From Ignavibacteria bacterium (GTDB lineage Bacteria > Bacteroidota > Ignavibacteria > Ignavibacteriales > SURF-24), in NCBI GenBank assembly GCA_025612245.1, contig JAAXKQ010000008.1, forward strand, positions 1-64,000: a stretch of 64,000 nucleotides of DNA, written 5' to 3'. Position numbers and translations under genes: made by a program. This document shows positions 1,006 through 31,119 of the stretch, piece after piece. Position 1 is the stretch's first letter; the number at the start of each line of letters is the position of its first letter. The notes under the pieces are model-generated. The model saw only the letters and a list, made by a program, of their open reading frames with translations, did no database searches and was not told the origin of the DNA.

Positions 1006-1028
1006 AAACTCTTCTTTTAAGCACTATT

Positions 1029-1068
1029 AAAATTCAGGGGATGGAAGAGCTTTCCATCCCCTGAATTT
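1029..1068. terminator. Bidirectional intrinsic terminator between convergent genes
   Basis: AAAATTCAGGGGATGGAA-GAGCT-TTCCATCCCCTGAATTTTT stem-loop between 376-1005(+) and 1088-1777(-). Confidence 0.85.
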
Positions 1069-1087
1069 TTATCTGGGCCCTCATTAT

Positions 1088-13227: not shown

Positions 13228-14457
13228 TTACCTGCCGCTTAGCTTTATTACAAGGTATACTTTTTTTGAAGGGGAAGTTTTTCCTTCACCATCCTCAAGT
13301 GTCACGGCGTATGAGTCGGCTTTATTTTGCGAGATTTCAGGAACGGAGAAAGGGAAGTACTCAACTTCTCTTTTCGTCCTGAAAGTCCCAAGTGAATAGT
13401 TGCGCCCTTTACTCAAGAGCCAGAGCTGATAAACCTCGCTGTCTTTGAGCGGGGGCATATTATAGAACTGGATTACACCTTCTTTGCCGTTCTGCAGGAG
13501 TGAGAGTTTCCCGAAACCTCCAGGGTTTCCTTCTGTCCCGTCCAGATTAATCGTCCTTAAGTCCTTTGCGCCCAGTATGGCCAGCACCTTCTGGTTCCTG
13601 TCGAGCCTGAGGATTTCACTGTTCAGTGCGTTGACCTGTCCAGAAAGAGAGGCTATCTTTTCTTCTCCCTGGTGAAGCTCGCGGTTCATTACAAGATACA
13701 TTATACCGCCTGAGATGAGGACAAATATTAAAATTGCAGACAGGACAAGTATGTTTCTTAAATAGTTATGTGACCTTTCCTCCTCTTCAAGCTCCAGCTC
13801 TTCTTTCAGCCATCTTTGCTTTTCAGACTCCATGTTGGGTGGTGCTTCCGCACTTTGTGGTTCCGCCACTGTAACTTCTTTTACGGCATCAGGTATAAAA
13901 GCCTCCATGGTCCTGTACATGGGGCTTCCTGCAGCCATCTGGCCTATGCTTCCTTCGGATACGGGTTCATCCTCAGGCGAATATTGCACCTCGGACAGAG
14001 CGCGCCTTACTCCCTTTTTGCTTTCTTCTTTTTCAGCAAATTCCCTTTCGTCAGGGGCAATTTCAACCGTCATTCTGCCGGTTGCCTTAAGGGAAGGGGC
14101 TTCTTTCATTTCCCGGGGTATTTCAGCCAATTTTTCAGAAAATGCACTTTCATTTTCGGGCTGTAGACCTTCCGAGGTAATATCTTTTACCATCTGCCTT
14201 TTCTTTGCCCTTAGCTCCTCACGCATGCGGTAAAGCCTTTTGGCAACCTTGTCCTTCAGCCCGGCTTGCGGCATCTCCAGTTCAAGCATTGCAGGCAAAA
14301 GCGCCATTACATTCTGCAGCTCCCCCAGCTCATTTTCGGGTATCCGCTGACCCGACTTAAGGTATTCAAGAAATTCCCTTTGTTCATTGCTATCCAGGCA
14401 GCCCGCAGAGAATGCGAATATCATTTCGTTGAATTTTTTTCCGCTCAAATTTCCCAT
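13228..14457 (-). CDS. Anti-sigma factor, anti-sigma-K (RskA)-like C-terminal domain
   Basis: Central TM ILVLSAILIFVLISGGIMYLV; C-terminal PPLKDSEVYQLWLLSKGRNYSLGTF...FPFSVPE...YAVTLEDGEGKTSPSKKVYLVIKL; adjacent to ECF sigma gene. Confidence 0.85.
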   Translation of the reverse strand: MGNLSGKKFNEMIFAFSAGCLDSNEQREFLEYLKSGQRIPENELGELQNVMALLPAMLELEMPQAGLKDKVAKRLYRMREELRAKKRQMVKDITSEGLQPENESAFSEKLAEIPREMKEAPSLKATGRMTVEIAPDEREFAEKEESKKGVRRALSEVQYSPEDEPVSEGSIGQMAAGSPMYRTMEAFIPDAVKEVTVAEPQSAEAPPNMESEKQRWLKEELELEEEERSHNYLRNILVLSAILIFVLISGGIMYLVMNRELHQGEEKIASLSGQVNALNSEILRLDRNQKVLAILGAKDLRTINLDGTEGNPGGFGKLSLLQNGKEGVIQFYNMPPLKDSEVYQLWLLSKGRNYSLGTFRTKREVEYFPFSVPEISQNKADSYAVTLEDGEGKTSPSKKVYLVIKLSGR

Positions 14458-14461
14458 CTTG

Positions 14462-15040
14462 TTATCCTTTAATCAGGTTGTCTTTAAGATTGCCGAGGGC
14501 AATCTGGATCTTACTTTTAACAGTAGGAAGCGGTATGTTCAGTTTCCCTGCAATCGAAGCCTGTGAGAACCCTTCATAAAAAGCCAGATAAATGACGTAC
14601 TTCTGGGCATCTGTCAGCTTATTGAGTGCCGTTTCAACGTTATTTTTCACGTTAAGAGCCGATTCCAGATCCAACTGATCTATGCCTTTGGAAAGGTGGG
14701 GAATAATGAAGGCATTTTCATATTCGTCTGTATATTCCTCGCTTAGCGGATCTTTGCTTCTGTTCCTTCTTAAATAGTCCACGGCCTTGTTCCTCGAAAG
14801 AAGAATTAGCCAGGCGTACACGTTTCCGGTAGAAAAGTCGAAACGCTCGATCTTCCTCCAGACAATTGCAAAGACTTCGGTCAGGATTTCCCCGGCAATG
14901 GCTTCCTCAACTACTATCCTTTTAATAAGGGTAAAGAGTATGGGTGAGTACCGGTCGTATAAGGTTTCCAGCGCTCTGGAGTCGTATGCGGAAATCTTCC
15001 GGAACAGCTCCAGATCAGTTTGTATTGAATAGGTTTTCAA
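14462..15040 (-). CDS. ECF RNA polymerase sigma factor (SigK-like)
   Basis: Region 2 ALETLYDRYSPILFTLIKRIV...VYAWLILLSRNKAVDYLRRNRS; region 4 LTDAQKYVIYLAFYEGFSQASIAGKLNIPLPTVKSKI. Confidence 0.92.
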   Translation of the reverse strand: MKTYSIQTDLELFRKISAYDSRALETLYDRYSPILFTLIKRIVVEEAIAGEILTEVFAIVWRKIERFDFSTGNVYAWLILLSRNKAVDYLRRNRSKDPLSEEYTDEYENAFIIPHLSKGIDQLDLESALNVKNNVETALNKLTDAQKYVIYLAFYEGFSQASIAGKLNIPLPTVKSKIQIALGNLKDNLIKG

Positions 15041-16278: not shown

Positions 16279-16797
16279 AACTCCTGTGCAATAGAATTAT
16301 GGTACTAAGAATATGGAAGCATCGGAATTTGATTAGTTCCGTGCCCTTCTGGTACATTTTTAAATCTATCCTGAAAATTCCTGAAAACCCTGAATCTATT
16401 TGAGCTTATGGATTATATCTCCAGTCCTGAAAATCCTGAAATGCAAAGTCGGCCAAGAGCATTTTAGAAGTATCCCGGGAAGTATTACAGCAGTTCCTTG
16501 TGTGTTTCTTACAATATCTCCGTATATAGCCGCGGAACTTAGACCCCATACAAACTAAAGTCAAGAATTTTTTTTATTTATTTTTTTTCTCTCTTTTTCT
16601 GCTTAATAATGGAATTATTTCAGCTCACATTGAACATCACACTCTTAGGCACTGACTAAAACGGCATAAAATCAATAAGATCCCGAGAGAGGAAAAATAT
16701 GCTCATACAAGAAGCTTGAACCAATAACTTTATTGCTAAAAAGAAAAAGCAAAGTTAAATTGCCTCTTAATAATTGTAACCATCATAAGGAGTCAAA

Positions 16798-18690
16798 ATG
16801 AAAAGGCACCTGTCAGGCTTACCAATAGCTGTTGTGTTCATGTTGCTGTTTACTTTTGCGGCCAAGCAGCCGGCCCCAAAGCTTTTTTTTACGCCCGAAC
16901 ATCCCAGGGCGGGTGAGGAAATAACAATTAAATATAATTCCGAAGGAACCGGCCTTTCCGGTAGGGATAGGGTTGAAATGATAACATACCTCTACAGCGC
17001 GGACCTCGATGAGACTGTGGGAGTGGAGATGAAAAAAGAAGGCGGCCTCTGGACGGCCTCAATAAAACCCGACCCTTCAACACGCGGCATGATAATTAAA
17101 TTTAAAAGCGGGGAGTATACGGATAACAACAAGGGCAAAGGCTTTATTGTAAAACTCTATGGAAACGACGGCAAAGAGCTCCCCGGTACACTTGCCGGCC
17201 TGGCTGCGGCCTGCGCCCTGTGGGGACCGAACATAGCTGGACTCGAAAGGGACCGCGAAGGTGCAGACAAACTCTTCCAGGAGGAATTCAGGAGAAACCC
17301 GAATCTTAAGTCCGAATACCTGGACGAATACTTCAGAGTCATTTCGCCTCTGATGGGTGAAAAGGCAGACGGCATTATTGCAAAAGAGCTGAAAAACTTG
17401 GAGAAAAAACCCGCAGCTTCCGAGGAATATTACACCTTAATGGCTACATGGTACGCTAAACTGAAAAATGAGGATAAAGCCAGCCGGTATAAAAAGCTCC
17501 TTCTTGAAAAATACCCCTCGGGAAAATTCGCACAGAACGAAGAATTTTCAGCTATAACAAAAACCTCAGAGCCCGGTAAAAGACTCGAACAGCTAAAATC
17601 CTTTGAGGCGGCTTATCCCAAAAGCGAACTTATCGCTGAACTCTACGATGATATGGCTACACTCTACATAGAAAACAGGATGTATAAGGAAGCAGTTGAC
17701 TTGCTGAAGGAAAACCCGGAGAGGCCCGCTCCATATTCTTTTTATAATGCTTCTTTCCAGATGCTGAAAGCAGGAGCCGACGCAGGCCTGGCCGCTGAGG
17801 TCTCAGCCCTGGGAGTAGAAAAAAGCAGGCAGGAGCTCAGTAACGCGGCCGAAAAAAAAACTAACACCCTTTCACCTGGCGAATGGCAGGAACAGCTGCA
17901 GTATTCACTGGGAATGAACCTTTACAGCCTTGGCAGCGCCAGGAATAAAATGGATAAAAAAGACGAGGCGCTCAGTGCAATTTCAGAAGCGCTGCCGCTT
18001 TTGAAGAACAGCGAGCCCGAAGCAAATGAGCTCTATGCAAATATCCTTATTCAAAAAGGCGAAAACGACAAGGCCTTAAAACACCTTGAAACCGTAATTA
18101 AAAGCGGCAACAGCACCCCATTAATGAAAGAATACCTTAAGACTGCTTATGCCGGTAAAAACGGCTCCCATGCCGGCTTCAGCGAATACCTCTCTGCCCT
18201 TGAGGCTTCTTCAAGGGAAACACTGGTGCAGAAACTTAAAAAAGAAATGCTTGACGATAGGGCACCGGATTTTAAGCTACGGGACCTGGAAGGGAAAGAG
18301 GTAAGCCTGTCTTCACTGAAGGGTAAAACCATCATACTCGACTTCTGGGCCACGTGGTGCCCTCCCTGCAGAGCCTCATTCCCGGGAATGAAGAAAGCCG
18401 TTGAGAAGTACTCCTCCAGGCCAGACGTGCGCTTTCTTTTCATTGATACCCGTGAACGCGTGGAAGACAAAAAGAAAAACGCGGCCGACTTTCTTTCTAA
18501 AAACCAGTATCCTTTCCATGTGCTGCTGGACAATGAAAGCAAGGTCAACGAGCTCTATAAAGTACCCGGCATACCGACTAAAGTTGTAATCGGCAAGGAC
18601 GGATTGATTAAATTTAAGGTGATAGGTTTCGACGGCAACACGGATAAAATGCTGGATGAAATTGACGCCATGATATCAATGGCCGACTAG
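16798..18690 (+). CDS. TPR-containing TlpA/thioredoxin-family protein
   Basis: Signal sequence; C-terminal APDFKLRDLEGKEVSLSSLKGKTIILDFWATWCPPCRASFPGMKK. Confidence 0.9.
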   Translation: MKRHLSGLPIAVVFMLLFTFAAKQPAPKLFFTPEHPRAGEEITIKYNSEGTGLSGRDRVEMITYLYSADLDETVGVEMKKEGGLWTASIKPDPSTRGMIIKFKSGEYTDNNKGKGFIVKLYGNDGKELPGTLAGLAAACALWGPNIAGLERDREGADKLFQEEFRRNPNLKSEYLDEYFRVISPLMGEKADGIIAKELKNLEKKPAASEEYYTLMATWYAKLKNEDKASRYKKLLLEKYPSGKFAQNEEFSAITKTSEPGKRLEQLKSFEAAYPKSELIAELYDDMATLYIENRMYKEAVDLLKENPERPAPYSFYNASFQMLKAGADAGLAAEVSALGVEKSRQELSNAAEKKTNTLSPGEWQEQLQYSLGMNLYSLGSARNKMDKKDEALSAISEALPLLKNSEPEANELYANILIQKGENDKALKHLETVIKSGNSTPLMKEYLKTAYAGKNGSHAGFSEYLSALEASSRETLVQKLKKEMLDDRAPDFKLRDLEGKEVSLSSLKGKTIILDFWATWCPPCRASFPGMKKAVEKYSSRPDVRFLFIDTRERVEDKKKNAADFLSKNQYPFHVLLDNESKVNELYKVPGIPTKVVIGKDGLIKFKVIGFDGNTDKMLDEIDAMISMAD

Positions 18691-18775
18691 CATTTAGCTT
18701 TGCAGCATCCTTTTACCCTGCATAATAGCTTGACATACAGAGTGTTTTTGCTATTTTTATAGTTAGGTGACCATT

Positions 18776-18912
18776 TTGAGAGGGCTATAGTGACAAGGGT
18801 TGCGTTATCTATATAATTATGCTTTTGAAACGTTTGCTTTATGCCTTGAAAAGATGAGATAACCCACTCAACCCTCTCAAGAGAGCTGGCTCTTTATACT
18901 CTCTTGAGAGGG
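18776..18912 (+). promoter_or_regulatory. Structured leader upstream of PRC-barrel gene with mutually exclusive pairing
   Basis: Perfect 14-bp IR CCCTCTCAAGAGAG (18872-18885)/CTCTCTTGAGAGGG (18899-18912); alternative pairing AGGGTTG-C-GTTATCT (18796-18810) with AGATAAC-CCACT-CAACCCT (18857-18875). Confidence 0.55.
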
Positions 18913-18971
18913 CTCACCTTTGATGAGTTTGTTTTCTCCGTAAAAAAGAGACAGGGTAAAGGAGTCATGGG

Positions 18972-19763
18972 ATGCTTAGAAGTATTAAGGAAGTCGAAAA
19001 ATACAGGATAATTGCTACTGACGGTGAAATTGGCGACGCATACGATCTCTACTTTGACGACGTAAAGTGGACTATCCGCTACCTTATTGTTGAAACAGGC
19101 GGGTGGCTTTCCAAAAAACAGGTGCTTATTTCCCCTTTTGCCATCACAAAAACCGACTGGCAGGAAAAAAAACTCTCGCTTAACCTTACACAAAAACAGA
19201 TCGAAAACAGCCCCGACGTTTCTACGGATGAACCCGTTAGCCGCCAGAACGAAATCGACCTCATGAAATATTACAACTGGCCCAGGTACTGGGATTGGGG
19301 TGAAGCCGGCCTGCCTTATACACCCGGAGCTGCTAGCTTTATGGCTTCGGGACCAATATTAAACGAGGGGGAGGTAAACGCACAAAAAAAAGAGGAAACA
19401 CAGCCCCAGGGCAGCGAAAAGAAAGGCGACCCGCATCTAAGAAGCAGCCGGGAGATCATAGGCTATAAGATCCAGGCAACAGACACGGAAATCGGACGCG
19501 TGGAGGATTTTATACTCGATGACGCAACCTGGATTATACGCTACATTGTAGTTGATACAGGCAACTGGCTTACCGGAAGCAAAAAGTTTCTTGTAGCTCC
19601 TCACTGGATCGAAAAAGTGCAGTGGGCTGAGTCCAAGGTGCACGTCGCCTTAAAGAGCGAAGACATCAAAAACAGCCCGCCTTATGATCCATCCCAAACC
19701 CTAAACCGGGACTATGAGAAATTGCTGTACGAACACTATGGTCTTCCTAAATACTGGATTTAA
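18972..19763 (+). CDS. Tandem PRC-barrel domain protein
   Basis: Two homologous halves: LRSIKEVEKYRIIATDGEIGDAYDLYFDDVKWTIRYLIVETGGWL and LRSSREIIGYKIQATDTEIGRVEDFILDDATWIIRYIVVDTGNWL. Confidence 0.9.
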   Translation: MLRSIKEVEKYRIIATDGEIGDAYDLYFDDVKWTIRYLIVETGGWLSKKQVLISPFAITKTDWQEKKLSLNLTQKQIENSPDVSTDEPVSRQNEIDLMKYYNWPRYWDWGEAGLPYTPGAASFMASGPILNEGEVNAQKKEETQPQGSEKKGDPHLRSSREIIGYKIQATDTEIGRVEDFILDDATWIIRYIVVDTGNWLTGSKKFLVAPHWIEKVQWAESKVHVALKSEDIKNSPPYDPSQTLNRDYEKLLYEHYGLPKYWI

Positions 19764-30695: not shown

Positions 30696-30792
30696 AATGC
30701 CGGCGTTCAGAAGTGCTGAATGGTTCAGGAGCAACGGGCTTTAGATGAGCCACTAGTTTTTCACATCCATTCCAAATCCTTAAGATTGCGAC

Positions 30793-31119
30793 ATGGGAAT
30801 TAAAGACAGACTGGTCTCAAAAGGAGCAGAAAAGATCGTTAACATGCTCTTTGAGGATATGGGGAAAGTATCGGGGCTTTCCATAGATTCCAGGAACAAG
30901 GCTATTAAACTGACCCTTGCGCTCAAAGGCGAAACCGGGCCGCTCGATATTAACATCATGGATTATGAAATCCTGGAGGGAAAGTCGCATTACTACATAA
31001 TAATCCGCAGGCTTTCAGCTTCCAGGGAGTGGATGAACATCGCTTTCGACAGGTTCTTCAAAGGCATAAAACTGCCCGTACCAGACAAGTACGGTTTTGT
31101 AATAAGGCAGACGCTCTAG
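30793..31119 (+). CDS. Conserved hypothetical protein
   Basis: 108 aa intact ORF with plausible start; no recognised domain. Confidence 0.6.
   Translation: MGIKDRLVSKGAEKIVNMLFEDMGKVSGLSIDSRNKAIKLTLALKGETGPLDINIMDYEILEGKSHYYIIIRRLSASREWMNIAFDRFFKGIKLPVPDKYGFVIRQTL

Follow-up and report, generated by a model that had tools for sequence, protein, structure and literature searches.

A candidate genus-restricted structured 5' leader upstream of a tandem PRC-barrel gene in Ignavibacteria

Introduction

Bacterial riboswitches and translational leader switches are carried by a long 5' untranslated region (5' UTR), in which a stem at the 5' end closes a branched domain. The ompA leader of Escherichia coli has a stabilising stem-loop at its 5' terminus, the stem lying close to or right at the start of the mRNA, upstream of the translated gene. 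Intrinsic transcription attenuators in turn combine a stable leader hairpin with a U-run and a terminator.

The leader of a tandem PRC-barrel gene of an Ignavibacteria bacterium, present in a stretch of 64,000 nucleotides that was analysed as a whole (the window), resembles each of these systems in part. With riboswitches and leader switches it has in common a long 5' UTR, a predicted closing stem at the 5' end, a branched domain and a Shine-Dalgarno site that could be caught in an alternative pairing; it differs from them in having neither an Rfam 15 family match nor a conserved alternative fold, and in being found in two species only. Two conserved folds of comparable energy, as are looked for in a riboswitch, were not found in this leader. 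As in ompA, a stem is predicted close to or right at the 5' end of the mRNA, ahead of a translated gene. The stable hairpin, by contrast, is internal here, with more than 100 nt separating it from the predicted start, and both its loop and its flank show sequence conservation. A stable leader hairpin is shared with attenuators, whereas the U-run and the terminator are absent.

Results

The leader and its neighbouring genes are listed in Table 1. Upstream of the TPR-thioredoxin gene, on the minus strand, an ECF-type sigma factor (14462-15040) adjoins an RskA-type anti-sigma factor (13228-14457), and the pair at 13228-15040 is a possible regulator of the nearby stress genes.

Table 1. Positions in the window of the leader, its elements and the adjoining genes
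Feature	Position	Strand	Remarks
TPR-thioredoxin gene	16798-18690	+	upstream neighbour of the leader
Leader	18691-18971	+	between the TPR-thioredoxin and tandem PRC-barrel genes
Conserved block A, putative promoter	18711-18771	+	runs on to TTAGGTGAC; G001 alignment, promoter scan
P1 5' strand, AGGTGA	18765-18770	+	predicted transcript 5' end; invariant in G001
TTGAGAGGGCT	18776-18786	+	can pair with CCCACTCAA 18863-18871 (one A.A mismatch) or with hairpin arm CCCTCTCAA 18872-18880
Alternative stem, 5' strand	18796-18810	+	
Alternative stem, 3' strand	18857-18875	+	covers the first four hairpin bases; partly diverged in G001
P3 hairpin	18872-18912	+	14-bp perfect stem, 13-nt loop CTGGCTCTTTATA
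P1 3' strand, TCACCT	18914-18919	+	complementary to 18765-18770
Conserved 3' flank TTGATGAGTTTGTTTTCTCCGTAA	18920-18943	+	between the hairpin and the ribosome-binding site; G001 alignment
Likely Shine-Dalgarno site AGGAG of the PRC-barrel gene	18960-18964	+	7 nt before ATG 18972
Tandem PRC-barrel gene	18972-19763	+	263 aa (PF05239)
Cu/Zn superoxide dismutase gene	19878	+	downstream of the PRC-barrel gene
NorB-type nitric oxide reductase gene	20509	+	after the superoxide dismutase gene

Among the genomes searched, the sister species G001 is the only relative of the same genus, and the comparative evidence consists of two sequences. G001 holds the leader at the syntenic place, and the surrounding gene order is identical. 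It was observed that 18711-18771 and 18872-18943 are nearly invariant between the two species and that the middle of the leader has diverged. Identity is uninterrupted over 33 nt in the first block (18739-18771) and over 29 nt in the second (18899-18927), whereas three other nearby intergenic gaps show 61%, 49% and 66% identity. Because of this difference it is very likely that both blocks are under constraint. The hairpin and its 3' flank (block B) differ from G001 by one inserted T and one deleted T, which makes a coding function unlikely. A leader peptide was rejected, as the short open reading frames of the leader are not preserved in G001 (alignment read by eye). Elsewhere in the window, the comparison with G001 revealed an intergenic block at 16723-16775, upstream of the TPR-thioredoxin gene, with 91% identity and a perfect run of 26 nt, and a region at 30774-31119 with 81% identity and no listed open reading frame of at least 120 aa, which is probably a short gene.

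Block A contains a promoter-like site scoring 10/12 in the promoter scan, with TTGACA at 18730-18735, a 16-nt spacer and TATTTT at 18752-18757 preceded by an upstream TG; the TTGACA-like box that the first-pass annotation had placed before the element is thus an exact match. Transcription probably starts near 18764-18766. Identity with G001 extends about 7 nt beyond this predicted start, exactly through the 5' strand of P1. The site also matches the TTG/TAnnTTT arrangement, but the frequency of that pattern in the window is no higher than expected by chance, and hence the fit is not independent evidence for a promoter. A second promoter-like site, GTGACA/TATAAT at 18790-18817, scores 11/12 here, yet it is not conserved in G001. 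A match to block A with 3 mismatches in G002 was also discarded, the surrounding sequence having no other resemblance.

The arms of P3, CCCTCTCAAGAGAG (18872-18885) and CTCTCTTGAGAGGG (18899-18912), are perfectly complementary, and the hairpin they form is beyond chance. When the leader was shuffled locally, 1 of 3000 trials yielded a stem equal to the observed 14 bp; dinucleotide shuffles of the whole window averaged 0.03 stems of 14 bp or more, such stems being seen in 2 of 60 shuffles. The only longer perfect close inverted repeat in the 64-kb window has 18 bp, at 1029-1069. This repeat, the longest of the window (1026-1072; 18 bp core, 21-nt arms, 5-nt loop, T-rich end of the 3' arm), is possibly a terminator. 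In G001, 13 bp of P3 are invariant and the loop differs at three positions; the predicted pair probability is about 1.0 in both species. A DNA search and the covariance model described below found the hairpin in a single copy in its own genome, the second match of the model being this hairpin again, seen from the opposite strand. A single copy does not fit a dispersed repeat of the REP or MITE kind.

P1 is predicted to join the two conserved blocks, and the branched domain that it closes would lie at the 5' end predicted for the transcript. With the modelled RNA ending 30-45 nt before the end of the longest stretch, the probability of P1 was 0.93 in G001 and 0.47-0.63 in this genome; with the longest stretch, which includes about 60 nt of coding sequence, it fell below 0.1 in both species. 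Random 9-mers found a 6-bp partner at the place of P1 in 0.4% of trials, in a test devised after P1 had been seen. In P1 and P3 together, 19 of 19 pairs are invariant between the two species, and this pair of sequences offers no compensatory changes in the hairpin, since both of its arms are identical in the two. The consensus fold of the pair alignment gave z-scores of -4.3 (MAFFT alignment) and -5.4 (BLAST alignment), and 0 of 300 column shuffles were as good. This signal comes mostly from P3, and the remainder is modest: with P3 cut out, z was -2.2 and 8 of 300 column shuffles were as good. Folding of the single leader sequence was only mildly better than that of shuffles (z = -1.6).

Overlapping the TCACCT strand of P1, CCTTTG at 18917-18922 can pair with TAAAGG at 18957-18962 over the Shine-Dalgarno region, with a probability of 0.19-0.31. 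The G001 counterpart is a possible pairing of CCTTT with AAAGG beside the start codon, at 0.41 and in the longest stretch only. It is conceivable, and is put forward purely as a hypothesis, that P1 competes with this pairing, a relation noticed after the folds had been inspected.

The first-pass annotation had described a switch, in which the hairpin and an upstream pairing exclude each other. Its sequence strings and coordinates all proved correct when rechecked against the sequence. The alternative stem does exist, as AGGGTTG (18796-18802), C (18803) and GTTATCT (18804-18810) complement AGATAAC (18857-18863) and CAACCCT (18869-18875), and 18872-18875 are indeed shared by the two folds. The exclusion was overstated, the overlap being just 4 of the 14 hairpin pairs, and the hairpin keeps its upper 10 bp when the alternative fold is forced in G001. 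The energies do not support a two-fold switch. The forced alternative has -44.8 against -52.1 kcal/mol here, a cost of 7.3 kcal/mol, and -38.5 against -53.7 kcal/mol in G001, a cost of about 15 kcal/mol calculated with the weaker version of the stem (5 + 6 pairs) that G001 allows. The strands of the alternative stem lie largely within the diverged middle of the leader. The further repeat copy was also confirmed, with TTGAGAGGGCT present at both 18776-18786 and 18904-18914; the copy at 18776 matches the hairpin arm in this genome only and is not conserved in G001, and neither is its pairing with CCCTCTCAA. Between P1 and P3 a second arm, TTGAGAGGG/CCCACTCAA, could form with one mismatch here; its counterpart GAGTGGG/CCCACTC is part of the best fold in G001, and in this genome another arm is favoured by about 2 kcal/mol. 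The fold of this variable arm differs between the two species. A scan for intrinsic terminators found none in the leader, the single terminator-like site, at 19066, falling within the coding sequence, and no U-run follows the hairpin. The costly alternative fold, the unconserved third copy and the absence of a terminator together make an attenuator or two-state riboswitch of the kind described unlikely.

The distribution of the element was examined with a covariance model of the hairpin block (R1), the genomes searched numbering 164 for the order, 197 for the class and 396 for the phylum. R1 matched this genome and G001 only, and G001 was among the matches listed in the order-level search alone. 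The pairing, which the first-pass annotation expected in the leaders of orthologous genes, is kept in G001 but is lacking at the PRC-barrel loci examined outside the genus. The orthologue in G004, from another genus of the family (63-64% identical), has no such leader; it likewise has a superoxide dismutase gene downstream. Weak R1 hits in G023 and G487 were in unrelated sequence, that in G487 being a terminator-like hairpin, and a weak hit upstream of a PRC gene of G050 (L008, E 0.05), apparently over the end of the upstream gene, was taken as chance. Upstream of two PRC-barrel paralogues (G001:C2 and G000:C22), L027 and L028 have a long conserved stretch, CCCTTGCAAATTATATCTATCTTGGTTAAACTTTACACACAATA, in common, which is unrelated to the hairpin leader. 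The entire window had 0 matches to Rfam 15 at gathering score, and the sub-threshold hits on the hairpin in a search to E 10 were of mir and MAT2A type (E of at least 0.14) and implausible. No relative of the element was found in genome contigs (protein and DNA-pattern scans), viral contigs (pattern scan) or plasmids. Titles and abstracts of the literature on Ignavibacteria or PRC-barrel proteins with riboswitches held nothing relevant.

Discussion

The leader of the PRC-barrel gene looks like a real conserved element that is limited to one genus. We give about an even chance to its being a genus-restricted structured 5' UTR of the PRC-barrel gene, most likely acting on translation or mRNA stability. 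The 5' end of the RNA, AGGTGA, would pair with TCACCT directly after the hairpin, and P1 so formed would close a branched domain that holds the variable arm together with P3, the invariant hairpin. Between this domain and the Shine-Dalgarno site, conserved sequence with only weak structure would extend over about 40 nt. The action is likely to be post-transcriptional. With P1 open, CCTTTG could pair with the AAAGG of the Shine-Dalgarno region and translation would be lowered; with P1 closed, the Shine-Dalgarno site would be freer and the 5' end could be shielded from decay. Sequence conservation and the predicted pairing of P1 and P3 are seen in both species, and we infer that the RNA may fold in this manner in cells and could influence translation or stability. 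That it represents a new, narrowly distributed class of cis-regulatory RNA, whose closing stem at the 5' terminus competes with the Shine-Dalgarno site to control a tandem PRC-barrel stress protein, and which senses a redox or nitrosative signal, is improbable on present evidence.

The main rival to a structured 5' UTR is a DNA operator, which we regard as unlikely. The near-palindromic arms CTCTC-AA-GAGAG and CTCTC-TT-GAGAG would bind a dimeric regulator downstream of the promoter, the RNA hairpin being a by-product. The two near-palindromes have their centres 25 bp apart, and both arms are conserved in exact sequence, beyond what mere pairing would need. On the other hand the inversion of the copies extends to their asymmetric centres and the flanking CC/GG, as an RNA stem requires, and conservation also covers the loop core GGCTCTTTA and the 3' flank. 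The lack of conservation of the copy at 18776 also speaks against an operator, as does the window, which has no additional copy at up to one mismatch.

It is more doubtful that the leader is a passive structure at the 5' terminus, one that stabilises the mRNA and neither senses nor switches. P1 would start at the predicted 5' end, P3 is very stable, and neither a terminator nor a conserved alternative fold is present, as such a structure would have it; this reading would leave unexplained why the loop core and the 18920-18943 flank are so strictly conserved. An independent small RNA gene between the TPR-thioredoxin and PRC-barrel genes is highly improbable: the promoter-like site of its own and the conserved ends would suit it, but no terminator lies past the hairpin and the conserved block is only about 30 nt from the start codon. 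The slightest chance is left to the earlier proposal of an attenuator or riboswitch whose two folds exclude each other, where the complementarity is present but the energy cost in both species, the mere 4 bp common to both folds and the lack of an intrinsic terminator and of an Rfam match count against it.

Complementarity noticed by eye can thus flag a real element even though the switch mechanism proposed for it is not borne out. If confirmed, the structured 5' UTR would add a so far uncatalogued mRNA leader to what is known of a little-studied lineage, and it would give a first handle on the control of a PRC-barrel gene that lies beside the genes for superoxide dismutase and nitric oxide reductase.
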